From contig CANMAI010000003.1 in assembly GCA_947495795.1 (NCBI GenBank), forward strand, positions 1 through 64,000: a DNA stretch of 64,000 nucleotides. The letters run 5' to 3'. Positions 4,739 to 50,742 of the stretch are shown here, one piece after another; position 1 is the first letter of the stretch; every line of letters starts with the position of its first letter. The stretch is from an uncultured Paracoccaceae bacterium. GTDB taxonomy: Bacteria > Pseudomonadota > Alphaproteobacteria > Rhodobacterales > Rhodobacteraceae. The notes below the pieces were generated by a model. That model did no database searches. It was not told the DNA's origin and worked only from the letters and a program-made list of their open reading frames with translations. The position numbers were made by a program, and so were the translations under genes.

Positions 4739-4798
4739 GCGGCCCTCAACAAAATGGTGCTTCACAAGAACGGGGTGCCAAGCAATCGGGAGAAGACA

Positions 4799-6019
4799 AT
4801 GAAACTGAAGATAATGGCGGCGGCGGGCCTTCTTTCGCTGATGACGACGGGTGCCTATGCCGGGTGTACTTATGAGAACCCCGTGCCCCTCAAATCCCTT
4901 TCTGCGGGGTTCGAGGCCTGGAAATCGGTGACGGACGCGATGGCGGAATGCGGGAATGTGGAGGCGGAGCTTGATCAGGAGTTTCGCACCAAGCAGCCTG
5001 CGGCCTTCGCTGCCAACCCCTCGCTCTACCATATTGGCGGCGTTTCCAACGGGACGGTCACGCCCTTGCTGAATGAGGGTACGATCCGCCCGCTGGATGA
5101 TCTGGTGGCGCAATATGGCGGCAACCTTTCACCGAACCAGCTGATCCGCATCAACGGCCAGGTGATGGCTGTGGCGATGATGGTGAACACGCAGCACCTG
5201 ATGTACCGCAAGGATATCCTCGATGATCTGGGGCTGGCGGTGCCGACCACATGGAACGAGGTGCTGGAGGTTGCGGCTGCAATCGAGGCGGCGGATGTGG
5301 TGGAGTATCCGCTGGGAGCCACGATGAAATCGGGCTGGAACCTCGCGCAGGATTTCAACAACATGTTCCTCGGCTATGGCGGCTCTTTCGTGAACGATGA
5401 CAGCACGCCGGCCGTGAATTCGGAAGCCGGTGTAAAGGCGCTGGAGATGATGAAGGCGACGACGGCTTTCATGGATCCGGAATATCTGGTGTCTGACAGC
5501 ACGTATGTTCAGCAGCAGTTCCAGCAGGGCAAGATTGCGATGGCGAACCTCTGGGCTTCCCGCGCGGGGGCGATGGATGACCCGGCTGAAAGCCAGGTGG
5601 TGGATAAGGTGTATGCGGCGGCAGCGCCCCTTGCGATGGAGGGTGGTGCACCGGCCACCACGCTCTGGTGGGACGGGATCGTGATTGCCAAGAACATCCC
5701 TGATGCGGAGGCGGAATCTGCCTTCCGTGTGGCGATGGAGGGGCTTGATACGGAAATGGTCGAAGGTGCCAATGACGAGGCGATCTGGCTGATCTCTGGC
5801 TATGCGCCGAGCCGGATGGCCGAGGGCGCGATTGCCACGGCCACGGCGGAGCCTGCGCCGATTTCTTACCCCTCCACCAGCCAGATGGGGCTGATGCACA
5901 CGGCTTTGGGCAACGAACTGCCCGCATTCTTCACCGGTGAGCGCGGCGCGAGGGATACGCTGGCTGCTGTTGAAGCAGCTTATACAACCGCTGCCAAGGA
6001 AGCCGGTATTCTGGAGTGA
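4799..6019 (+). CDS. Sugar-type ABC transporter substrate-binding protein
   Basis: This 406-residue periplasmic binding protein has an N-terminal signal peptide (MKLKIMAAAGLLSLMTTGAY, cleavage near Ala-Gly-Cys) and belongs to the extracellular solute-binding protein family 1 (maltose/glycerol-phosphate type). The ATG at 4799 has a clear GGGAGAAG site; an upstream in-frame ATG at 4754 lacks one. It lies between the ATPase and the two permease genes. A hairpin follows the stop codon (6027-6048), consistent with higher expression of the binding protein than the permeases. The ligand is unknown; the surrounding dehydrogenases suggest a polyol, sugar or related hydroxylated compound. Confidence 0.9.
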   Translation: MKLKIMAAAGLLSLMTTGAYAGCTYENPVPLKSLSAGFEAWKSVTDAMAECGNVEAELDQEFRTKQPAAFAANPSLYHIGGVSNGTVTPLLNEGTIRPLDDLVAQYGGNLSPNQLIRINGQVMAVAMMVNTQHLMYRKDILDDLGLAVPTTWNEVLEVAAAIEAADVVEYPLGATMKSGWNLAQDFNNMFLGYGGSFVNDDSTPAVNSEAGVKALEMMKATTAFMDPEYLVSDSTYVQQQFQQGKIAMANLWASRAGAMDDPAESQVVDKVYAAAAPLAMEGGAPATTLWWDGIVIAKNIPDAEAESAFRVAMEGLDTEMVEGANDEAIWLISGYAPSRMAEGAIATATAEPAPISYPSTSQMGLMHTALGNELPAFFTGERGARDTLAAVEAAYTTAAKEAGILE

Positions 6020-6026
6020 AACACGG

Positions 6027-6048
6027 GGGCCGGTGATGCCGGCCCTTT
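6027..6048 (+). terminator. Hairpin between binding protein and permease genes
   Basis: GGGCCGG - TGATG - CCGGCCC forms a perfect 7-bp GC stem with a 5-base loop followed by TTT, just after the stop of the binding-protein gene and before the first permease gene. This arrangement resembles a partial terminator or mRNA-stabilising hairpin that raises binding-protein expression. Confidence 0.6.
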
Positions 6049-6082
6049 ACGCGAACCCGTTTGACCGGAGAGGGGGGCTGTC

Positions 6083-7102
6083 ATGAAATTTCGCACATTC
6101 GCGGCCTTTGTTGGCCCCTCCGTCTTTCTGATGCTGTTGTTTATCGCAGCCCCTCTGACAAGCGTGTTTCTGCAAAGCTTCCAGCTGACGCAGCCGGTGC
6201 TGGAACGGGTCGAGGTGGAGACCTGCACGCCGGGGTTCGTCACGCAGACCTGCGTGACGGAGATAAAGACCCGCCCGCTTCTGGATGAGGCGGGCAATAT
6301 CCGCACCACGACGGAATGGGTGGGCGGGCTGAGCTATGCGCGGGTGCTTCAGCTTGGCAAGGTGGGGGAGGCGATTGCGGCAGGCGCGTGGGGCGATATC
6401 CTGTCCATCGATTTCTGGAAGGCGTTGCGGTTCACCCTGACCTTCACACTGATCACCCTTCCGCTGGTCATCGGTCTTGGCCTTGCCATCGCCCTGGCCG
6501 TCAACAACGCGGCGAAGGCCATTCGCGGGCAGATCATCTTCGTCTCTCTTCTGCCCTTCATCATCACACCGGTCATCGGCGCGCTTTCGATCCGCTGGCT
6601 TTTCATCGGCGACGGGATCATGACGGCGGGGCTGGAATGGTGGCTGGCGCGCGATATCTCCATGTTCGCGCAGGGCTGGACGATCGAGCTTCTGATGCTG
6701 TTCTACAGGGTCTGGCATGTGGCGCCCTTTGCCTTTGTGATCTTCTATGCGGGCTTGCAGACGGTTAATCAGGACACATTGGAAAGTGCGATTATCGATG
6801 GTGCAAGCCGGTGGGAACGGTTGCGCTATGTGATCGTGCCGCATCTGATGCCGCTGATCGTGTTCGTGGCGCTGATCCATCTGATGGACAGCTACCGCGT
6901 GTTCGAGGAGATCGTGGGCTTCAGTTCGCAGGCGCATGTGATCAGCCTGCAATGGCTGACATATGATTTCCTGCAACCCGATGATGCCGGAAACCGGGCC
7001 ATCGGGCGGGCCTCCGCCTCCGCTATGCTGACGATGGTTGGGATCGTGATCCTGCTGATCCCGCTTCTGCGCCGCACTTGGCGCGACCACAGGGGGGCGT
7101 GA
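6083..7102 (+). CDS. Sugar-type ABC transporter permease 1
   Basis: This 339-residue inner-membrane permease is of the MalF/UgpA type. It carries the cytoplasmic EAA loop (about residues 233-255, ESAIIDGASRWERLRYVIVP) that contacts the ATPase. After the first membrane segment there is a periplasmic insert of about 60 residues containing two cysteines (CTPGFVTQTC), which may form a disulfide. The ATG at 6083 follows a GAGAGGGGGG site. The gene is directly followed by its partner permease with a 1-base gap. Confidence 0.9.
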   Translation: MKFRTFAAFVGPSVFLMLLFIAAPLTSVFLQSFQLTQPVLERVEVETCTPGFVTQTCVTEIKTRPLLDEAGNIRTTTEWVGGLSYARVLQLGKVGEAIAAGAWGDILSIDFWKALRFTLTFTLITLPLVIGLGLAIALAVNNAAKAIRGQIIFVSLLPFIITPVIGALSIRWLFIGDGIMTAGLEWWLARDISMFAQGWTIELLMLFYRVWHVAPFAFVIFYAGLQTVNQDTLESAIIDGASRWERLRYVIVPHLMPLIVFVALIHLMDSYRVFEEIVGFSSQAHVISLQWLTYDFLQPDDAGNRAIGRASASAMLTMVGIVILLIPLLRRTWRDHRGA

Positions 7103-7103
7103 G

Positions 7104-8261
7104 ATGAGCACACCCCGCGCCTTGCGCCAATCCTTCGCATTGCGAGCCGGATCCGCTGGGTTTCTCGCCCTCTGGTGCCTGATCGCGGCCTTCCCGATCT
7201 TCTGGATCGCGGTGATGAGCTTCAAGACACCGGTGGATGCGTTTGCCGCCAACCCGCTGGATGTGATCCTCGGGCCGGAGACACGGGCGCGGGGGCACGG
7301 GCTTTCATTGCTGGATATACTGGTGGGTGTTGCAGTGCTGTGGCTCACCGCGCGGCTTGCGTTGCGCAACCTCGGTGGTTGGGTCCAACGCTTCAGCCCG
7401 CCTGGGCTGATCGCGCTCGGCTGGGTGCTCGGGGCTGTTGTCTTCGGGCTCGGCTTTGTGGCGGTTTTCCTTGGGCTGTTGCCAACCGTTCTCGGGGCAC
7501 TGAACGCGCTGGCGGGGCCGCTTGGTGTGCCGGTGATCGGGCTTTCGACAGAGCATTATGTTGCCGTATGGGCAGAGAACGCGTTCTACAGCAACTTCCT
7601 CAATTCGCTTCTGGTGACAACAGGAGTGGTGACGGTTTCTTTGACAGTAGGTACTCTTGCGGGTTACGGGCTGGCGCGCTCCGGCTCTGCGCTTGCATTC
7701 TGGATCCTGATTATCGCGCTTGTATTCAGAGCGTTGCCACATTCCGTTCTGGTGGCCGGGTATCTGCCTGTTTTCATTAATTCTGCCGAGATCCTGCGCC
7801 CGATCCTCGGAGAAAACGCCCCGACACTCTATGGCCAGCCACTGGCGGTGATCGCCGTTCTCGTCTCCATCAACCAGCCCTTCACGATCTGGATGCTGCG
7901 CTCCTTCTTTCAGAGCATTCCGGCGGAGCTGGACGAAGCGGCGCGGGTGGATGGCTGCACGCATTTCCAGGCGTTTCGCTGGGTGATCATGCCGGTGATG
8001 TGGCCGGGAGTGATCACCACAGGGCTGTTCTCCTTTCTTCTGGCCTATAACGATTTTCTTGTGACATCGCTTCTGCTGGATGCGCAGAACCAGACGATGG
8101 TACCGGCGATTGCGGGGTATTTCAATCGCGAGACAACCACGACCGATCAGGTGGAGGCTGTGGCGGCCGCCGTTTCAATTACCGCGCCCCTTTTTCTTCT
8201 GGTGATGGTGTTTCAGCGCCAGATCGTCTCTGGACTGACGGCGGGGGCGGTGAAGGGGTAG
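7104..8261 (+). CDS. Sugar-type ABC transporter permease 2 with extra membrane segment
   Basis: This 385-residue permease is the MalG/UgpE-type partner of the preceding gene, with the EAA loop around residues 274-300 (ELDEAARVDGCTHFQAFRWV). The family usually has about 270-300 residues. The excess comes from an insertion at about residues 60-140 that looks like two additional membrane helices before the normal core. It starts one base after the stop of permease 1 and ends the transporter part of the operon. Then comes a 236-bp gap containing a long inverted repeat. Confidence 0.9.
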   Translation: MSTPRALRQSFALRAGSAGFLALWCLIAAFPIFWIAVMSFKTPVDAFAANPLDVILGPETRARGHGLSLLDILVGVAVLWLTARLALRNLGGWVQRFSPPGLIALGWVLGAVVFGLGFVAVFLGLLPTVLGALNALAGPLGVPVIGLSTEHYVAVWAENAFYSNFLNSLLVTTGVVTVSLTVGTLAGYGLARSGSALAFWILIIALVFRALPHSVLVAGYLPVFINSAEILRPILGENAPTLYGQPLAVIAVLVSINQPFTIWMLRSFFQSIPAELDEAARVDGCTHFQAFRWVIMPVMWPGVITTGLFSFLLAYNDFLVTSLLLDAQNQTMVPAIAGYFNRETTTTDQVEAVAAAVSITAPLFLLVMVFQRQIVSGLTAGAVKG

Positions 8262-8282
8262 ACCATGCAAAGAGTATTAGAT

Positions 8283-8465
8283 GCCTCCGGCGGGGATATT
8301 TTCAGACACAAGATGAAAGGGTTTGTTAACTATCATTTGTCACAGTTTTCTGGCGGTACAGGCGGGGACGCCGATGGCCGCGACATGAGATGGCACCCCG
8401 TTTTGCGTAAGGCAGGCGGGGTGTTTCTCCCTCATCTTATGTCTGAAAATATCCCCGCCGGAGGC
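8283..8465. repeat. 34-bp near-perfect inverted repeat in intergenic gap
   Basis: The arms at 8283-8316 and 8432-8465 are reverse complements over 34 bp with one mismatch (GCCTCCGGCGGGGATATTTT plus 14 more bases), separated by 115 bp. A related half-site lies at 50721-50742 (TCATCTTTCCGAAAATATCC). The pair could fold as a long hairpin in mRNA between the transporter genes and the downstream catabolic genes. It resembles a dispersed intergenic palindrome rather than an insertion sequence, because no transposase is present. Confidence 0.8.
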
Positions 8466-8497
8466 TCCGGGGTTTCAGGCCTGTGCAGGTGCAGGCC

Positions 8498-9031
8498 ATG
8501 AAAGGATCGCGGCCTGAGCAGGCGCCCTTGTCCCGCGCCACCGATATGTCGAAGACCAACGCGACGCGCGCTGTGATCGAGGGCATGGTTGACGGTCTCA
8601 ACGATCACCGGATTTCCGATATCGGCGAGTTTTTTGCCGAGAGCTTTTCGTGGTTCGGGAATTTCGGGTGCGGCACCAAGCGCGGGGTGCGGGAATTTCA
8701 GGAGAACTGGCAAAAGCCGTTTCAAGCCGCGTTCTCGGATAAGGTCTGTGTGGATGAGGCCCGGCTTTTCATGGGGGAATGGGCGGCGGCTTTCGGGCGG
8801 CAGGAGGCCGTGCATTCGGGGCGGTTCTTCGGCGTGGAGCCTACGGGCAAGCGGGTGGAGATCCGCTATATGGATTTCTGGAAAGTGGTAGACGGGAAGA
8901 TCGTCGACAATTGGGTGATGGTCGATTTCCCGCATGTTTTGAGCCAGTTGGGCGTTGATGTGTTCGGCGGTGAGGGCTGGGAAGCGTTTGACCGGGGCGA
9001 GAAGGTCCCGCCGGGAGGGAGCGATGGTTGA
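8498..9031 (+). CDS. Single-domain SnoaL/NTF2-like protein
   Basis: This small cytoplasmic protein (177 residues from the ATG at 8498) has one NTF2/SnoaL-fold domain and carries the ending [19 protein letters not shown]. That motif is shared with the C-terminal domains of the proteins at 2600-3577 and 10948-11994, so the three are paralogues. The start is uncertain because no strong ribosome-binding site is visible; ATG at 8546 is an alternative. It overlaps the HisD-family gene by 8 bases and opens the run of overlapped catabolic genes. Reaction unknown. Confidence 0.72.
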
Positions 9032-10331
9032 GGTTCTGAAAGCGAGCAAGGCCGAGGCCGAGCGGGCCGGTGATGATGCGGATGTGCGCCGTGTTGTGGA
9101 GGCAGCCCTTGGAGATATCGCAGCGCGGGGCGATGGGGCGGTGCGCGAACTCTCGGCCAGGTTTGACGGATATGATCCTGCGGCCTTCCGGCTGACGGAG
9201 AGTGAGATTGCGGCGGCGATGAGCCGGGTCTCTGAGCGGGATATGGAGGATATCCGGTTTGCGCAGACCCAGATCCGCCGCTTTGCCGAGGCGCAGCGAG
9301 CCTCGATGGTGGATATCGAGCTGGAGACACTGCCCGGTGTGATCCTCGGACACCGGAACATACCCGTGCAATCGGTGGGCTGTTATGTGCCAGGAGGCAA
9401 GTTTCCCATGGTGGCCTCGGCGCATATGTCCGTGCTGACGGCGGCGGTGGCGGGTGTGCCGCGGATCGTGGCTTCAGCCCCGCCGGTGGACGGCGGGCCG
9501 CACCCGGCGATCGTGGCAGCGATGCATCTGGCAGGTGCGCATGAGATCCTGTGCCTCGGCGGTATTCAGGCAGTGGGCGCGATGGCGCTGGGCACCGAGA
9601 CGCTGGAACCCGTGCACATGCTGGTGGGGCCCGGAAACGCCTATGTCGCAGAGGCCAAGCGGCAGCTTTTCGGGCGTGTCGGGATCGACCTTTTTGCGGG
9701 ACCGACGGAGACGATGGTGATCGCCGACGAGATCGTAGATGCTGAGATGTGCGCCACCGATCTGCTGGGGCAGGCGGAGCATGGGTATAACTCGCCCGCT
9801 GTTCTGGTGACCAACAGCCGCAGGCTGGCGGAGGAGACGCTGGCGGACATCGCGCGCATCCTGGACATTCTGCCCACGGCGGAGACGGCGCGGCGGAGTT
9901 GGGAGGATTACGGTGAGGTGCATCTTTGCGAGAGCTACGAGGAGATGCTGGCAGTGGCCGATGAGATCGCCTCTGAGCATGTGCAGGTGATGACGGACCG
10001 GGACGACTGGTTTCTGGAGAACATGACGTCTTACGGTGCGCTTTTCCTTGGGCCGCGCACGAATGTGGCAAATGGCGACAAGGTGATCGGGACCAACCAC
10101 ACGCTGCCGACACGCAAGGCCGGGCAGTATACCGGCGGGCTTTGGGTGGGCAAGTTTCTGAAGACACATTCCTATCAGAAGGTGCTGACGGATGAGGCCG
10201 CTGCCGAGATCGGGGCCTACGGCTCCCGCCTTTGCATGCTGGAAGGCTTTGTGGGCCATGCGGAACAGTGCAATCTGCGGGTGCGCCGGTATGGCGGGCG
10301 GAATGTGGCGTATGGGGAGGCAGCGGAGTGA
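9024..10331 (+). CDS. HisD-family NAD-dependent dehydrogenase (histidinol/HpsN-like)
   Basis: This 435-residue protein belongs to the histidinol dehydrogenase family. The family zinc ligands and bases are in place: Gln250 and His253 in GQAEHG, Glu318-His319 in SEHV, Asp352 in [10 protein letters not shown], and His412 in [10 protein letters not shown]. It lies in a catabolic operon beside an importer and not among histidine-biosynthesis genes. A role oxidising an alcohol of the imported compound is therefore more likely, as in HpsN, the HisD homologue that oxidises 2,3-dihydroxypropane sulfonate. The ATG at 9024 follows GGGAGGGAGC. No sulfolactate-lyase gene is visible in the locus, so the substrate remains open. 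Confidence 0.85.
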
Positions 10332-10951
10332 GGCATTTCTTGACGATTGCAGCCTGCCTGTGGGCAGCACCACTTTGGGCCGGAGAGGGTGCGCATTTTC
10401 CTGCTGAGATATCTCAGGACTGTCGGGGCGGGCTTGCGGCGCTTTACGATGAGTGCGGTTCGCAATTTGACGTGCTGGCCGATGCGAAGGCGGAGGCCGC
10501 GCGCAGTGGCCGCATCGTGCTGGTGATCTATGGCGCTGAGTGGTGCATCTGGTGCCATGTTCTCTCTGCGCATCTCGACGGGCAGGTTGGCATTTTCAGC
10601 TACCAGTTTGACGGGCAGGCGGCGCTGCTGATGGAAGGCGAGGGGCTGGATCCTGAAGCGGCCAAGGCATTGGCGGCCTATGTGGATGAGACCTTCGTGA
10701 TTGCGCATATCGAGGGCGAACGTGCGATTGACGGGGATTTCGTGCTGCGCAAGACCGGCGCTTGGGAGGCTTACGAGAAGTGGATCCCCTTTGCCTACGC
10801 GCTGAAAGATGGCCAGTTCGCTGCGGGTTTGGGACAGACAGAGCACGGGCAGGATCTCCTGATCCGGCGGGAGGGCCCTCTTTGGTACCGGGGCTATGAC
10901 AGGGCGGTGCTGATGCAGGCCTTGCGGCGGATGGAGGCGGCTGCGAGATGA
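10328..10951 (+). CDS. Exported thioredoxin-like protein with CxxC motif
   Basis: This is a 207-residue protein with an N-terminal signal peptide ([17 protein letters not shown]) and a thioredoxin-like segment containing [11 protein letters not shown] at about residues 70-80. CIWC would be the redox pair. The start is a GTG at 10328 that overlaps the HisD-family stop as GTGA, with GGGAGG upstream. It is odd to find a periplasmic thiol protein embedded by overlaps within a sugar-type catabolic operon. It may keep an exported partner reduced, or reduce a substrate disulfide. The fold is assigned from the motif only. Confidence 0.7.
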
Positions 10952-11994
10952 GCGAGCATCGCACCAATCGCCATGTTCTGGATGGTATGCGCGCTGCCCT
11001 TTATGATTTTGAGCCGAAGGCGGTACAGGCTGCTTTGCAGGCTGCTTTCGCCCCGGATGCCACTGTTCGGCTTGCCCATCCCTTTGAGGATCTGGAGGGG
11101 GCGGGCGGTCTTTGGGAGCGGGCGCTTCAGCCCCTTGCCGCAGCCTTTCCGGATCTGGAGCGGCGCGATTTCATTGTGATGGCCGGGCCTGCGGATGGCG
11201 GCAACTGGGTGGGGTGTGGCGGGTATTACACTGGCACGTTCTGGAACCCCTTTCTGGAGATACCGCCGACGGGGCATATGGCTTCGATGCGGTACCATGA
11301 ATTCTACAGGATTGAGGAGGGTCGTGTCGCGGAGATGCAGGCGCTCTGGGACATACCGGAATTGATGATGCAGGCGGGGGCCTGGCCAATGGCGCCGAGC
11401 CTCGGGCGCGAGTGGCTGGTCCCAGCGCCCGCCACGCAGGACGGGCTGCGGCGGGGGGAATGGGACGAGGCTGCCTCGCGCCGCTCCAGTGCTACGGTGG
11501 TGGAGATGCTGACGGCGATGAAGCGCCACCCGCTGGAGGGCGGGCCGGAGGTGATGGACATGCCCCGCTACTGGCACCCGAAGATGAGCTGGTACGGGCC
11601 TGCCGGGATCGGCACAGGGCGCGGGATTGCGGGCTTTCGGAACTGGCATCAGATCCCCTTCCTCAAAGCCATGCCTGACCGAGGGCAACATGTGGATGAG
11701 ATCACCTATCATTTCTTTGGCGATGGCGATTATGTGGGTGTGACGGGCTGGCCCGACATGATCCAGACGATCAGCGATGACGGCTGGATGGGGATGGTGC
11801 CGAAGGGCCAGAGGGTAACGATGCGCAGCCTCGATTTCTGGCGGTTGGAAAACGGATTGATACGGGAGAACTGGGTTTTGGTGGATCTGCTGGATGTGTA
11901 TACGCAGGTGGGCGTGGATGTGCTGGGCCGGATGCGGGAGTTCAACAAGGCGCGGCGGGGCGGGTTCCCCGGCTTTGGGGAGCTTGAGGCATGA
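10948..11994 (+). CDS. Two-domain SnoaL/NTF2-like (ester cyclase family) protein
   Basis: This 348-residue protein is a paralogue of the product of 2600-3577 with the same two-domain plan (about residues 1-155 and 180-345). It has matching blocks such as HEFYRIEEGRVAEMQALWDI and PKMSWYGPAGIGT, and the ending NWVLVDLLDVYTQVGVDVL. The ATG at 10948 overlaps the previous stop as ATGA, and the stop overlaps the SDR gene the same way. The reaction is unknown. Several related copies in one operon suggest that successive intermediates are handled by similar folds, or that the copies form a mixed complex. Confidence 0.8.
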   Translation: MSEHRTNRHVLDGMRAALYDFEPKAVQAALQAAFAPDATVRLAHPFEDLEGAGGLWERALQPLAAAFPDLERRDFIVMAGPADGGNWVGCGGYYTGTFWNPFLEIPPTGHMASMRYHEFYRIEEGRVAEMQALWDIPELMMQAGAWPMAPSLGREWLVPAPATQDGLRRGEWDEAASRRSSATVVEMLTAMKRHPLEGGPEVMDMPRYWHPKMSWYGPAGIGTGRGIAGFRNWHQIPFLKAMPDRGQHVDEITYHFFGDGDYVGVTGWPDMIQTISDDGWMGMVPKGQRVTMRSLDFWRLENGLIRENWVLVDLLDVYTQVGVDVLGRMREFNKARRGGFPGFGELEA

Positions 11995-12755
11995 AGCTGC
12001 CCCGCACCCCTTCGTTTCGGCTGGATGGCAGGCGCGCGCTTGTGGCCGGGGCCTCTTCCGGCATCGGGCTTGGTTGTGCCGTGGCTTTGGCGGAAGCGGG
12101 CGCGGAGGTGTATCTTGGCGCGCGCAGGGTGGATGCGCTGGAAGTGGCGGTTGCGGCAATCCGGGCGGAGGGTTGGGCCGCGCATGCGCTGCCTCTGGAT
12201 GTGAGCGCTGTTGAAGCTACGGCGGCGGCTGTCGCCGAGAAGGGTCCGTTCGATGTGCTGGTGAACTCTGCCGGGCTGGCGCGGCATGGGCCGAGTCTCG
12301 ACACCACGCCTGAGGATTTCGATGCGGTTGTGGATGTGAACCAGAAGGGGGCGTATTTTCTGGCACAGGCTGTCGCCAAGGGCCTGATTGCGGCGGGCAA
12401 GCCCGGCTCTCTCATGACGATATCGAGCCAGATGGCCCATATTTCCGGGCCGGAGCGGGCCGTTTATTCCGGCACGAAGCACGGGGTGGAAGGCTTTACC
12501 AAGGGCATGGCGATCGAGTGGGGGCCGATGGGGATACGCGTGAACACGATCTGCCCAACCTTCATCCGCACGGCGCTGACCGCATCCACCTTTGAGCGGC
12601 CAGAGAAGGTGGCGTGGCTGACCGAGAAGATCAAGCTTGGCCGTGTGGGCGAGGTGGAGGATATCATGGGGGCGGTGACTTTCCTTGCTTCTGACGCCTC
12701 CGCATTGATCACCGGATCTTCGTTGCTGGTTGATGGAGGGTGGACGGCCGGATGA
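11991..12755 (+). CDS. Short-chain dehydrogenase/reductase (SDR)
   Basis: This 254-residue classical SDR has the nucleotide-binding motif GASSGIGLG (about residues 20-28), the NSAG block (about 91-94), a catalytic serine in ISSQMA, and the YSGTK tyrosine-lysine pair (about 157-161). It likely oxidises or reduces a hydroxyl/keto group using NAD(P). It overlaps the SnoaL-like gene before and the LacI regulator after it by 4 bases each. Together with the HisD-family enzyme it could carry out consecutive oxidations of the imported compound. The substrate is inferred only from context. Confidence 0.88.
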   Translation: MKLPRTPSFRLDGRRALVAGASSGIGLGCAVALAEAGAEVYLGARRVDALEVAVAAIRAEGWAAHALPLDVSAVEATAAAVAEKGPFDVLVNSAGLARHGPSLDTTPEDFDAVVDVNQKGAYFLAQAVAKGLIAAGKPGSLMTISSQMAHISGPERAVYSGTKHGVEGFTKGMAIEWGPMGIRVNTICPTFIRTALTASTFERPEKVAWLTEKIKLGRVGEVEDIMGAVTFLASDASALITGSSLLVDGGWTAG

Positions 12756-13786
12756 GTGTGCGCAAGGCAACCTCTCTGGATGTGGCCGAGCGGGCGGGTG
12801 TGAGCCAATCCGCCGTCAGCCGCGTGTTCACGCCGGGTGCTTCTGCTTCTGCTGCGACGGTTGAGAAGGTAAAAAAGGCCGCGTCCGAGCTGGGCTACCG
12901 GCCCAATGTGCTGGCCCGCAGCCTGATCACCGGGCGGAGCCGGATCATCGGGCTCGTCGTCGCCTATCTGGAGAATTACTTCTACCCCGAGGCTTTGGAG
13001 AAGCTTTCCAAGGCGTTGCAGGCGGAAGGCTATCATGTGCTGGTCTTCATGGCTTCGCAGGGAGCGGGAAACCTGGATCAGGTTCTGGAAGAGATCATGG
13101 ATTATCAGGTGGACGGGATCGTGATGGCCTCTGTCGCCCTTTCCTCGGATCTGGCGGCGCGGTGTCGGGCGGCGGGCGTGCCGGTGGTATTGTTCAACCG
13201 CGCGCAGGACGGGGAGGATGTGGCTTCCGTGACGTCTGACAATTATGCCGGGGGGAAGCTTGCGGCGCGGTTTCTTCTGGCCGGGGGGCACCGGCGCATC
13301 GGCTATATCGCCGGTTGGGAAGGCGCCTCCACCCAGAGGGACCGGGAGGCCGGGTTTCGGGCGGGGCTTGCCGAAGGCGGCGCGGATCTGGCGGCCCGGG
13401 AGGCCGGCGATTTTGACCATGCGCTGGCCGAGGCTGCGGCACGGCGGATGTTTGCGGGCCCAAATCCGCCCGATGCCGTTCTGGTCGCCAATGACCACAT
13501 GGCCTTTGGCGTGATGGATGTGCTGCGAAGCGAGTTGGGGCTGGACGTGCCCGGCGATGTTTCGGTGATCGGTTTCGATGACGTCCCGCCCGCAGCGTGG
13601 CCCGCCTATGCGCTGACCACGCTGCGCCAGCGGGCCAATGGCATGGTGGCGGAGACGGTGAACCTTTTGTTGGAGAGTATCGGCAAGAGGGCGGTTCCGG
13701 CCCGGCGGGTGGTGCTGGAGGCACCGCTGGTTATCCGCCGCTCCGCCCGGGTGCCAGAAGGATGGAGCGATGATGCAAGGCTTTGA
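12752..13786 (+). CDS. LacI-family transcriptional regulator
   Basis: This 344-residue regulator has an N-terminal LacI helix-turn-helix (SLDVAERAGVSQSAVSRVF) and hinge, then a periplasmic-binding-protein-like ligand domain (about residues 60-340). The ATG at 12752 overlaps the SDR stop as ATGA; the ATG at 12740 is less likely. Its probable operator is the CG-centred palindrome at 3595-3616, which would control both the ABC/catabolic operon and the divergent SnoaL-like gene. LacI proteins usually sense the imported sugar or an early intermediate and are released from DNA by it. An internal position in its own operon implies autoregulation. Confidence 0.9.
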   Translation: MSVRKATSLDVAERAGVSQSAVSRVFTPGASASAATVEKVKKAASELGYRPNVLARSLITGRSRIIGLVVAYLENYFYPEALEKLSKALQAEGYHVLVFMASQGAGNLDQVLEEIMDYQVDGIVMASVALSSDLAARCRAAGVPVVLFNRAQDGEDVASVTSDNYAGGKLAARFLLAGGHRRIGYIAGWEGASTQRDREAGFRAGLAEGGADLAAREAGDFDHALAEAAARRMFAGPNPPDAVLVANDHMAFGVMDVLRSELGLDVPGDVSVIGFDDVPPAAWPAYALTTLRQRANGMVAETVNLLLESIGKRAVPARRVVLEAPLVIRRSARVPEGWSDDARL

Positions 13787-14744
13787 CGAGAGGTTCCGGG
13801 ATTTCCCGGATTACATTCTGGGCATCACTAAGGAGATCTGGGAGGATCGGGGCATCGCGACGCTGCACCGCTATTATGCGCCCGAAATCATCGTCCGGTC
13901 CCCCGCCGGTATCGTGGTGGGCAATGAGGCCGTGATCGGTGCGACGATGGCGACGCTGGCGGAATTTCCCGACAGGACCCTGTTGGGCGAGGATGTGATC
14001 TGGTCCGGCAGCCCGGAAGTGGGGATGCTCTCTTCCCACCGCTTGCTTTCCACGGCCACGCATAGCGGCGACGGGGTGTACGGCAAGGCGACGGGCAAGC
14101 GGCTGACCTACCGGATCATTGCCGACTGCCACGCGAAGGCAAACCAGATCGACGATGAATGGCTGATCCGGGATCAGGGGGCCATCGTGCGGCAACTTGG
14201 CTGGACGCCGGAGGACTATGCGGCCGAGATGATCGCGCGGGAGGGCGGGCCGGAGGTGGCCCCGCGCCCCTTCACCACGCTTGGCGATATGGCGGGCCCC
14301 TATGCGGGGCAGGGCAATGACGATCCCTGGGGACAGCAATATGCCGACATCCTGTCGCGGATCATGGACGCGGATATGGCCGTCATCGGCACTGCGTATG
14401 ACAGGGCGGTCCAGTCGGAATATCCGGGGGGCGTGACCGGTCACGGACGCGGGGCAGTGGATGGGTTCTGGATGCGGCTGCGCGCGGCCTTTCCGGATGC
14501 TGCATTTACCATCCATCACCAGATCGGTCGGGAGGACAGCGCGATGCCGCCCCGCGCCGCACTGCGCTGGAGCCTTGAGGGCGTGCATTCGGGATGGGGC
14601 GGTTTCGGTGCCCCGTCCGGCGCCAGAGTGCATGTCATGGGCGCCTGTCACGCCGAGTTCGGCCCGTGGGGTCTGCGGCGGGAATACGTGCTCTATGACG
14701 AAGTGGCAATCTGGAAGCAGATCCTGTTGGCAGGGGCCGGGTGA
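13770..14744 (+). CDS. Divergent two-domain SnoaL/NTF2-like protein
   Basis: This 324-residue protein has two predicted SnoaL-like domains. The first includes blocks such as RYYAPEIIVRSPAGIVVGNE, and a second begins near residue 185. Its C-terminal motif (REYVLYDEVAIWKQILL) is a diverged form of the ending found in the three other SnoaL-like proteins here. The ATG at 13770 (or 13773) lies 17 bases inside the LacI gene. It is the fourth member of this fold in the locus and the most distant. Function unknown; ester-cyclase labels for this family are structural and not biochemical. Confidence 0.75.
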   Translation: MMQGFDERFRDFPDYILGITKEIWEDRGIATLHRYYAPEIIVRSPAGIVVGNEAVIGATMATLAEFPDRTLLGEDVIWSGSPEVGMLSSHRLLSTATHSGDGVYGKATGKRLTYRIIADCHAKANQIDDEWLIRDQGAIVRQLGWTPEDYAAEMIAREGGPEVAPRPFTTLGDMAGPYAGQGNDDPWGQQYADILSRIMDADMAVIGTAYDRAVQSEYPGGVTGHGRGAVDGFWMRLRAAFPDAAFTIHHQIGREDSAMPPRAALRWSLEGVHSGWGGFGAPSGARVHVMGACHAEFGPWGLRREYVLYDEVAIWKQILLAGAG

Positions 14745-15364
14745 TGGACCATTTCGGGACGCTCATGTTCACGCCGCGCGTGGCTGCGGAGCAGGCGGCG
14801 CGGGGCTCTCGCGAACAGTATGAACGGATGCTGCAGCGCCCGGTACCGGACGGTTTGGGGCCGGATGAGAAGGCGTTTATCGAAAGCCGCGACAGCTTTT
14901 ACATGGCCAGCATCTCGGAAAGCGGTTGGCCCTATGTGCAGCATCGGGGCGGGCCAACGGGATTTCTGAAGGTGTTGGGGCCGGAGACGATCGGGTTCGC
15001 CGATTATCGGGGCAACCGGCAATATGTGAGCACGGGCAATCTGAGTGGAGACGCCCGGGTGGCGCTCTTTCTGATGGATTATGCGCGGAAGGCGCGGATG
15101 AAGATCATCGGGCATGCTGAGGTGATTGAGGCGGAGGATGCGCCTGATTTGAGCGCGCAGCTTGCAAGCAAAGGGCAGGGGCGGGTGGAGCGGCTTTTCA
15201 CAATTCGTGTGGCAGCGTTCGATTGGAACTGCCCGCAATTCATCACGCCCCGGTTCACGGAAAAAGAGATCGAGGCGATGCTTGGGCCGCGCATGGCGGA
15301 ATTGCAGGCTGAAAATGCGGATCTGAGGGCCCGGCTGGCAGATTATGAGGGAGGCGCAGAATGA
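14744..15364 (+). CDS. Pyridoxamine 5'-phosphate oxidase-like flavin protein
   Basis: This 206-residue protein has a split-barrel PNPOx-like domain (about residues 35-150, with DSFYMASISESGWPYVQHRG and GFADYRGNRQ blocks). Such domains typically bind FMN or F420. A short C-terminal tail (AELQAENADLRARLADYE) looks like a coiled coil and may drive dimerisation. The ATG at 14744 shares one base with the preceding stop; a GTG at 14741 is also possible. It is probably a flavin-dependent reductase or oxidase in the same pathway, not vitamin B6 synthesis, because of its operon position. Confidence 0.82.
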   Translation: MDHFGTLMFTPRVAAEQAARGSREQYERMLQRPVPDGLGPDEKAFIESRDSFYMASISESGWPYVQHRGGPTGFLKVLGPETIGFADYRGNRQYVSTGNLSGDARVALFLMDYARKARMKIIGHAEVIEAEDAPDLSAQLASKGQGRVERLFTIRVAAFDWNCPQFITPRFTEKEIEAMLGPRMAELQAENADLRARLADYEGGAE

Positions 15365-16329
15365 CACCTGAGGAGATGGACGCACGGATCGTGCGCTACG
15401 GCGATCTGCGCCCGTGCAAGACGGCATTTATTGATGCGCACACACCGGGGAGCGACCAGAAGGAGAACTTCACGATCATCGGCGGGGGTGTTTCCGAAAG
15501 CCTCGATCAGCATGTGCATATCGCCATTCCGCACGGGTTCAACATTGGCGCGGCCGGGCAGCCGCCGAAATGCCGGAACTCGCTGCATTCGCACCGCACG
15601 GCAGAGGTGTTTTTCGTGCTGAAGGGGCGTTGGCGCTTTTTCTGGGGGCGCTGGGGCGATGCGGGCGAGGTGGTGCTGGAAGAGGGGGATATCATCAACA
15701 TTCCCACCGGCATCTTTCGCGGGTTCGAGAATATCGGCACGGATTACGGGATGATCATGGCGATCCTGGGCGGTGACGATGCCGGGGGCGGCGTGATCTG
15801 GGCACCGCAGGTGATCGAGGATGCGGCTGATCACGGGCTGGTTCTGGGGGAGAACGGACGCCTTTACGACACCAAGGCCGGGGAGCGGCTGCCGGAGGGC
15901 CTTTCACCCATGCCCCTGCTGACGGAGGCGGAACTGGCCGATTATCCCGAGCCGGAGGCGCTCGACGTCGTGCCAGGCCATGTCGCGCGCTGCTGGGATC
16001 TTGTGGCGCTGGCGGGCCGCAAACCTGCCAAGGTGATCGGAGAGACGGGCCTTTTGCGGGACAAGCCGGGTTTTGAGGTGGATTTCGTGACCCGCGCCTC
16101 TGCCTCGGACGCTATGCACACCCATGATCGCCCCTCAGTTCTGATGCCGATGCACGGGCACTGGCGGCTTTTCTGGGAGGGGGGCGAGACTGTACTGAAC
16201 CCGGGCGATACAGCCTCTGTTCCGGCAGATTTGCCGCATGGTGCGGTGCCTGCAATGACGGGGGAGGCCAGCCTTTACCACATCGTTGGAACGGATGATC
16301 CGGCGGGGCCGACGTGGAGAGAAGGATGA
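15361..16329 (+). CDS. Bicupin protein
   Basis: This 322-residue protein has two cupin domains. The first is at about residues 70-145 (HSHRTAEVFFVLKGRWRFFW, then GDIINIPTGIFRGF) and the second at about 245-320 (MHTHDRPSVLMPMHGHWRLF, then GDTASVPADLPHGA). Both keep histidines suited to bind a metal, as in quercetinase- or gentisate-dioxygenase-like bicupins. It overlaps its neighbours by 4 bases on both sides, so it belongs to the same operon. An oxygenase or isomerase role is possible; the substrate is not known. Confidence 0.82.
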   Translation: MTPEEMDARIVRYGDLRPCKTAFIDAHTPGSDQKENFTIIGGGVSESLDQHVHIAIPHGFNIGAAGQPPKCRNSLHSHRTAEVFFVLKGRWRFFWGRWGDAGEVVLEEGDIINIPTGIFRGFENIGTDYGMIMAILGGDDAGGGVIWAPQVIEDAADHGLVLGENGRLYDTKAGERLPEGLSPMPLLTEAELADYPEPEALDVVPGHVARCWDLVALAGRKPAKVIGETGLLRDKPGFEVDFVTRASASDAMHTHDRPSVLMPMHGHWRLFWEGGETVLNPGDTASVPADLPHGAVPAMTGEASLYHIVGTDDPAGPTWREG

Positions 16330-50720: not shown

Positions 50721-50742
50721 ATTCATCTTTCCGAAAATATCC
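50721..50742. repeat. Half-site related to the 8.3-kb inverted repeat
   Basis: The stretch with TCATCTTTCCGAAAATATCC lies in the short gap between cysS and cimA. It resembles the right arm at 8432-8455 (TCATCTTATGTCTGAAAATA then TCCC). It may be a dispersed intergenic motif of this genome. Confidence 0.5.

Follow-up and report, generated by a model that had tools for sequence, protein, structure and literature searches.

A candidate small-RNA gene between inverted REP-like repeats in a transport operon, and the match of its linker to dispersed repeat tails

The locus and its repeats

The window, meaning the whole stretch of 64,000 nucleotides from an uncultured Paracoccaceae bacterium that was analysed, carries at 4754-16329 a tight run of twelve called genes, including genes for a solute-binding protein and two permeases, a SnoaL-like gene and a histidinol-dehydrogenase-like gene, and the sole gap of more than 100 nt in this run is filled by an inverted-repeat element. 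The long inverted repeat described here by a first-pass annotation is real, with arms of 34 nt at 8283-8316 and 8432-8465 that are complementary at 33 of 34 positions (97%) across a spacing of 115 nt. The very stable mRNA structure proposed between the permease and the SnoaL-like gene is likewise predicted, the computed RNA fold of 8262-8500 reaching -126.3 kcal/mol as compared to -80.1 +/- 4.6 kcal/mol for 200 shuffles (z -10), and the region folds better than its shuffles on both strands, with z of about -10. The annotation's interpretation as a member of a dispersed palindrome family, with a half-site elsewhere in the window and a stable structure, holds in these parts, but it overlooked the 115-nt interior, which contains a conserved RNA element. 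The features of the locus are as follows.

7104-8261, + strand: ABC transporter permease (BPD_transp_1), upstream of the insertion
8283-8316, + strand: left REP-like arm, with tail X = GACACAAGATGA at 8305-8316
8315-8330, + strand: CtrA-box-like site, GAAA-N7-TTAAC against the consensus TTAA-N7-TTAAC (consensus from PMC6180460), at -38 to -23 of the presumed RNA start
8341-8346, + strand: -10-like element CACAGT, with A at -11 and T at -7
8353-8381, + strand: conserved hairpin P1/P2 of the candidate RNA (GCGGUACAGGCGGGGACGCCGAUGGCCGC), with the presumed transcription start at 8353
8382-8393, + strand: linker X' = GACATGAGATGG, matching REP tails of the GACATAAGATG subfamily
8393-8426, + strand: terminator-like hairpin GCACCCCG...CGGGGTG, followed by TTT only; predicted -20.7 kcal/mol
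8432-8465, - strand: right REP-like arm, with Xc = TCATCTTATGTC at 8432-8443, which complements X and, with one G.U, X'
8498-9031, + strand: SnoaL-like gene, downstream, its start picked by analogy with relatives; it directly follows the permease in six relatives
50722-50742, - strand: degenerate REP-like copy of the second (GAAAGATGAA) tail type, the half-site of the earlier annotation

Because the corresponding gaps of six relatives, in which a SnoaL-like gene (80-85% identical) follows the permease at a distance of 0-175 nt, contain neither the two-armed element nor the RNA core, the element looks to have been inserted into a conserved operon. At the window element, inspection by eye revealed no target-site duplication, and in two further relatives of the permease (L164 and L181) no close SnoaL gene adjoins. 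One of the six gaps (L163, in genome G007) holds a lone reverse REP arm; this genome gave no RNA match in the covariance search described below, and the arm is apparently an independent insertion.

Each arm of the window element is a copy of a dispersed REP-like repeat of the form (GC-rich)GGATATTT-nn-X, namely a GC-rich arm, the constant part GGATATTT, two or three free bases and a purine-rich tail X. Repeats of this kind have been known for decades, and their function is not agreed. The dispersed family that the annotation suspected emerged when the window's genome (4.84 Mb in 55 contigs) was searched with the first 21 nt of the arm at up to three mismatches, which found 31 places, the two arms included, whereas the reversed control pattern of the same 21 nt found none in the same 4.84 Mb. 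The exact 15-mer GGCGGGGATATTTTC is confined to the two window arms in this genome, so an exact search would miss the family. The proposed half-site also belongs to it, since 50722-50742 on the - strand reads GGATATTTTCGGAAAGATGAA with no mismatch and represents the second tail type of the window's genome; as a control, GGATATTTTCGGAAAGATGAA at up to three mismatches was found in none of 100 shuffles. A matrix built from the copies located 6-7 places in 464 kb of the window's genome, chosen blind to the repeats, and none in the reversed sequence. In relatives, where the annotation had advised a search, 152 of the 295 family genomes examined, each from a different genus, contain the exact 19-mer GCCTCCGGCGGGGATATTT, its reversed control being 0 in every row of the family search, and named carriers of a longer version of the repeat (67 stretches) include Actibacterium, Palleronia, Aliiruegeria, Aliiroseovarius and Roseobacter.

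The copies occur singly or as inverted pairs (for example at C2:87928-87998) and, with genes called by a codon-usage script, they lie mostly near gene 3' ends: 29 of 31 in the window's genome and 80 of 83 at named loci are outside called genes, with 0 of 31 and 6 of 83, respectively, between divergent genes. Seventy-eight REPs from seven genomes were matched by tail (see below), coding hits having been removed in advance; convergent genes flank 37 of them and divergent genes none, and co-directional gaps hold 21 and 20 in the two orientations, a neutral distribution. In named carriers (L071-L137), 31 of 43 reverse-oriented REPs finish no more than 9 nt from the stop codon of the gene that reads into them, a tighter spacing than that of forward ones.

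A conserved RNA-like element and its distribution

The interior at 8353-8426 consists of a 29-nt hairpin (P1/P2), the linker X' and the terminator-like hairpin, and P1/P2 is composed of a 5-bp outer stem, an ACA/GAUG internal loop, a 4-bp inner stem and a GGGA-type loop. When the 115-nt interior was used as a DNA query, 83 of 149 family genomes gave a match, and a covariance model, R1, of 43 positions and nine pairs, which was built on 28 aligned copies and covers the hairpin and linker, matched 233 of 295 family genomes (one per genus) with 1-7 copies each. The window's genome has two copies, the window's own (C3:8353) and one at C12:63217. At the level of the class R1 matched 14 of 289 genomes, ten of them outside the family (seven at E 5e-7 or better, three marginal at E 0.006-0.009), and at the level of the phylum, at E 0.001 or better, it matched 14 of 299, all 14 in the same bacterial family.

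In 27 distinct sequences 99.2% of cells pair, with exchanges among G.U, A-U and G-C, as compared to at most 61% in slid controls, and of five measures of covariation three were reached in 0 of 500 shuffles and the other two in 13 and 62 of 500. The outermost pair, which lies outside the pattern used to gather the copies, is standard in all 27 (GC 12, GU 9, AU 6). In a larger set of 86 loci, gathered by a letter pattern that restricts variation, 751 of 774 cells pair, and the innermost pair of the inner stem is GC in 61, UA in 18, AU in 3 and CG in 1, being unpaired in 3. The G.U pairs point to an RNA rather than a DNA structure, and in predicted folds X' would be only partly unpaired (0.33-0.78 over its first nine bases).

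The covariance models of Rfam 15 gave no match at E<=1 for 8200-8560 and, for 20 further loci, six matches, none on the core and all under the gathering scores, of which five were microRNA families on REP inverted repeats (E 0.0004-2.1) and one was M23 (E 2.5). No description of the RNA or of its core letters was found in the open-licence literature, and a description elsewhere is possible. A survey of Paracoccus denitrificans names its sRNAs by number, and in the part of that publication available (PMC5107571) these could not be mapped to the candidate RNA. From its sequence, 8353-8426 looks like a small-RNA gene of an unnamed family. A known riboswitch (c-di-GMP-I, suggested by the loop letters) was rejected when Rfam gave no match on the core, and a phage or Escherichia coli origin of the core when searches gave no match; Shine-Dalgarno mimicry, CsrA sites, a GNRA loop in X' and tRNA-, CRISPR- or TnpB-like readings were set aside by eye, the letters being inconsistent across loci or no partner gene being known. 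A single-hairpin terminator as the full account leaves X' unexplained.

Taking the first base of hairpin P1 as position +1, A at -11 and T at -7 occur together in 59 of the 86 loci, as does G at -14 (59/86), and the first hairpin base is a purine, G or A, in all 28 aligned copies where it is free. TTAAC stands at -27, and a second TTAA fits best exactly seven bases upstream of it (a mean of 2.15 of 4 letters, against 1.86 at N8 and 0.59-1.16 at other spacers), with at least six of the nine letters of a CtrA box present in 53 of 86 loci. According to PMC6180460, CtrA-dependent promoters have the full site TTAA-N7-TTAA near -35 in Caulobacter, and an A at -11 and a purine start in Rhodobacter sphaeroides, where sites spaced by six are also described. 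As a family consensus, the letters upstream of the RNA resemble such a promoter, which here would drive the candidate RNA gene; the window copy retains TTAAC, A-11 and T-7, but its upstream half-site is weak (GAAA). At the other end, a closed hairpin followed by at least four T in 8 nt was found in 64 of 86 loci, in a simple scan without a shuffled control.

The RNA gene recurs in shared surroundings. Twenty-two of the 86 RNA loci, in 21 genomes, adjoin an acyl-CoA dehydrogenase gene and/or a gene with a Succ_CoA_lig domain (17 both, 5 one; assigned by Pfam for one locus), and a second neighbourhood, with glutathione S-transferase, accounts for six loci, the two RNAs of the window's genome lying in neither. 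At the acyl-CoA dehydrogenase neighbourhood the hairpin has a mean column identity of 95% and X' one of 81%, with 16 forms of X' in the 22 loci; thus X' varies within limits. Three genomes (G093, G174 and G247) have an RNA at this neighbourhood, and dispersed REP tails elsewhere in the same genomes match its X'. Two other RNA loci, in different genera (L196 and L199), adjoin what looks like the 3' end of guaA, judged by a C-terminus read by eye on the reverse strand. Repeat and RNA also tend to be found together, the REP 19-mer being carried by 147 of the 233 genomes that have the RNA and by 5 of the 62 that lack it (Fisher p 7e-16, uncorrected for kinship).

A search of plasmids with a 48-nt core query at E up to 1 returned 41 records, the weakest of them doubtful, and the carriers include Paracoccus, Cereibacter, Leisingera, Phaeobacter, Mesorhizobium, Shinella and two Legionella; five Sphingobium rows among the matches listed fall within an acrB gene and probably arose by chance. 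In the two Legionella plasmids (L244 and L245), whose hosts are Gammaproteobacteria, the RNA core is accompanied by a CCCCGGGATATTT arm and by a matching Xc or X, and this combination of arm with matching tail or complement suggests that the RNA unit can move between distant hosts by means of plasmids.

Correspondence between the linker and repeat tails

X' lies directly 3' of the hairpin, and in 57 of 72 distinct loci a copy of X is found within 115 nt upstream at 9/12 or better (in 15 it falls below 9/12), as compared to 11.7% of mismatched pairings in which the X' of other loci is used; these 72-locus counts retain a few probable false core matches, such as L163 and L282. TATTT or TACTT precedes 52 of the 57 X copies. 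Downstream, Xc is present at 9/12 or better in 44 of the 72 loci, against 12.8% of mismatched pairings, and is absent or weak in 28. Of the 119 differences between X and X', 77 are A>G, and 44 of the 57 loci have this change at position 6. X' usually repeats X apart from A>G at one position, so that it would still pair with the opposite strand.

The correspondence extends to REPs elsewhere in the genome. REPs were gathered by their arms, blind to the tail, in stretches of seven genomes picked for high REP counts or single contigs, with coding hits removed and a filter for a GC-rich arm that takes in only the letters preceding the tail (the G000 set includes 30 arm-pattern loci). Of 94 REPs outside RNA elements, 78 match an X' of their own genome at 8/11 or better, and the mean best identity of 8.91 compares with 7.01 when sets of X' are reassigned among the genomes (maximum 8.44; 0 of 10000 reassignments reached the observed value). 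In G174 all 15 of 15 tails are AACAAAAGAAG, with X' AACAGAAGAAG, and in G184 eleven tails are GGTCAATGATGG, with X' GGTCGATGATGG. G247 has three tail types (AACRGRTGAA in nine copies, CAGAGAGGATG in five, and CCAAGATGAA with close variants in four) and three RNAs, whose X' are AACGGGTGAA, CAGAGGGGATG and CCAAGGTGAA; the first sample from this genome already showed a second tail type when a single X' had been identified, and a later search found an RNA with a fitting X'.

When X' is set against the complementary strand of 80 tails, selected at 8/11 or better, 708 of 800 positions form Watson-Crick pairs, 77 wobble pairs and 15 mismatches, and of the 92 differences between X' and tail 75 are A>G and none is G>A. 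Sixteen of the 94 candidates are unmatched. In G003 a tail type, CCATTTGGAA, present in two copies (L256 and L270), has no counterpart among the RNA matches of that genome, and either the RNA was overlooked or this may be an orphan repeat type; in G141 five of six candidates are unmatched and are probably not REPs.

In a first, noisy test of the tails that kept coding hits, own-genome values were reached in 0 of 500 draws for G000, G174 and G247, in 5 for G093, in 29 for G003 and in 410 for G141. Without the arm filter, own X' were favoured over foreign X' in G000 (14 vs 3), G174 (15 vs 2), G247 (15 vs 1) and G184 (13 vs 2), and foreign X' in G003 (3 own vs 6), G093 (1 vs 3) and G141 (1 vs 5), 14-17 foreign X' having been tried against 1-4 own.

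Possible functions and rival readings

From the conserved structure, the promoter-like and terminator-like signals and the X'-REP match, all of them present in the sequence, we infer expression, control by CtrA, pairing in the cell and an effect. The reading that best accommodates these observations, to which we assign a probability of roughly 0.6, is that CtrA-controlled small RNAs recognise dispersed REPs through base pairing of X' with the complement of their tails. The window element would then be a small-RNA gene of an unnamed family, sitting between two inverted REP-like copies inserted between two genes of a transport/catabolic operon and most likely possessing its own promoter, activated by the cell-cycle regulator CtrA. 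Its transcript would most likely run from the first base of P1 to the terminator-like hairpin, a length of about 75 nt, with the fixed hairpin serving as a scaffold that is probably bound by protein. X' would pair in trans with the pyrimidine-rich complement of REP tails, either in transcripts that cross REPs from the tail side, in REP DNA, or in both, and where X' has G against a tail A or an A/G mixture it could pair with both, as G.U or G-C. Each REP tail type would tend to have its own RNA, the two changing together, and the effect would most likely be on mRNA 3' ends or on REP DNA. The systematic wobble suggests that the recognising strand is RNA. Neutral REP orientation points to recognition at the level of DNA or to a mixture of targets, and the 20 of 78 REPs that would put X, rather than Xc, into the upstream mRNA argue against an effect on mRNA only.

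A more elaborate and tentative version of this reading, which we hold possible though doubtful, envisages an RNA-guided repeat system in Alphaproteobacteria. Its RNAs, under cell-cycle control and one for each repeat type, would combine a fixed scaffold of 29 nt with an exchangeable guide of 11-12 nt; the guide would attach them to REP DNA beside the constant GGATATTT, and they would either propagate the repeats or hold them together in the chromosome.

It is also conceivable, but unlikely, that the RNA serves REP mobility as its trans-acting recognition component, guiding an enzyme to REP ends, where X stands beside GATATTT; REPs would then be non-autonomous copies, and their spread, not control of host genes, would keep X' and X matched. 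Mobility would be consistent with the neutral orientation of REPs, with the absence of the two-armed element from the orthologous junction of six relatives and the lone arm in one of them, with the RNA and REP arm found together on plasmids, including those of two Legionella, and with the TATTT or TACTT that precedes X in 52 of 57 copies. Residence of the RNA gene in one neighbourhood at 22 loci is nevertheless unlike a freely mobile gene, the window element shows no target-site duplication by eye, and a search limited to the Y1 family (PF01797) found any Y1 transposase in only two of ten RNA-bearing genomes. Transposition of REPs by a RAYT-type Y1 enzyme was accordingly rejected, the gene being absent from the window's genome and from seven of the nine others.

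Less credible still is a likeness of X' to X that stems from common descent or from gene conversion among REPs, with the RNA gene a passenger and no pairing involved. X does usually lie within 115 nt upstream of X' (57/72), where local conversion is possible, yet conversion would remove the A>G difference, and this difference is found at position 6 again and again (44 of 57 loci) and accounts for 75 of the 92 differences in the genome-wide set, with no G>A; moreover, X' GAACGGTAATG of G003 shares 10 of 11 letters with the dispersed tails GAACGATAATG but 9 of 11 with its own left arm GAACAGTAATT. We would give similarly little credence to a role confined to cis, in which transcription would be terminated or slowed by the hairpins on its way from the transporter genes to the enzyme genes downstream. 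The very stable predicted fold (z -10), the terminator-like hairpin on the sense strand of the operon and the position within an operon that is otherwise closely packed, and unbroken in relatives, are all as such a role would have them, but it leaves the conserved P1/P2, the promoter-like signals and the genome-wide X'-REP match unexplained. A local polar effect may exist beside recognition of REPs by the RNA, in that the predicted hairpins may locally reduce read-through from the transporter into the SnoaL-like and histidinol-dehydrogenase-like genes.

If small RNAs do recognise REPs, these repeats gain a partner and their role becomes directly testable by way of a single small RNA, and the repeats may be tied to the CtrA cell-cycle circuit. 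The candidate also represents an additional RNA family, which had no Rfam match in the search made here and which occurs in 233 of the 295 genera sampled from a single bacterial family. We know of no precedent beyond naRNA4 for the coupling of an sRNA gene, a REP and a CtrA site, the parts themselves being of known kinds. According to PMC6907758, naRNA4 of Escherichia coli, which acts with HU, is a non-coding RNA encoded by the REP325 element and is reported to target cruciform DNA of the nucleoid. In the present case the RNA is a separate gene between REP arms. To our knowledge, naRNA4 has no scaffold conserved across a family, no match of one RNA to each REP type and no CtrA promoter.

The repeats resemble REP and REPIN sequences associated with RAYT (Y1) enzymes in being short and dispersed, in occurring as singlets and inverted pairs, and in lying mostly between genes and near gene 3' ends; they differ in their constant part, GGATATTT, from the superfamilies with GTAG or CGTC tags that PMC3733652 describes. 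With trans-acting sRNAs that have a Rho-independent terminator the candidate shares a 5' hairpin, a partly open linker and a terminator-like hairpin, but its presumed targets are dispersed REPs instead of a small number of mRNAs, and from genus to genus the linker changes along with these targets.
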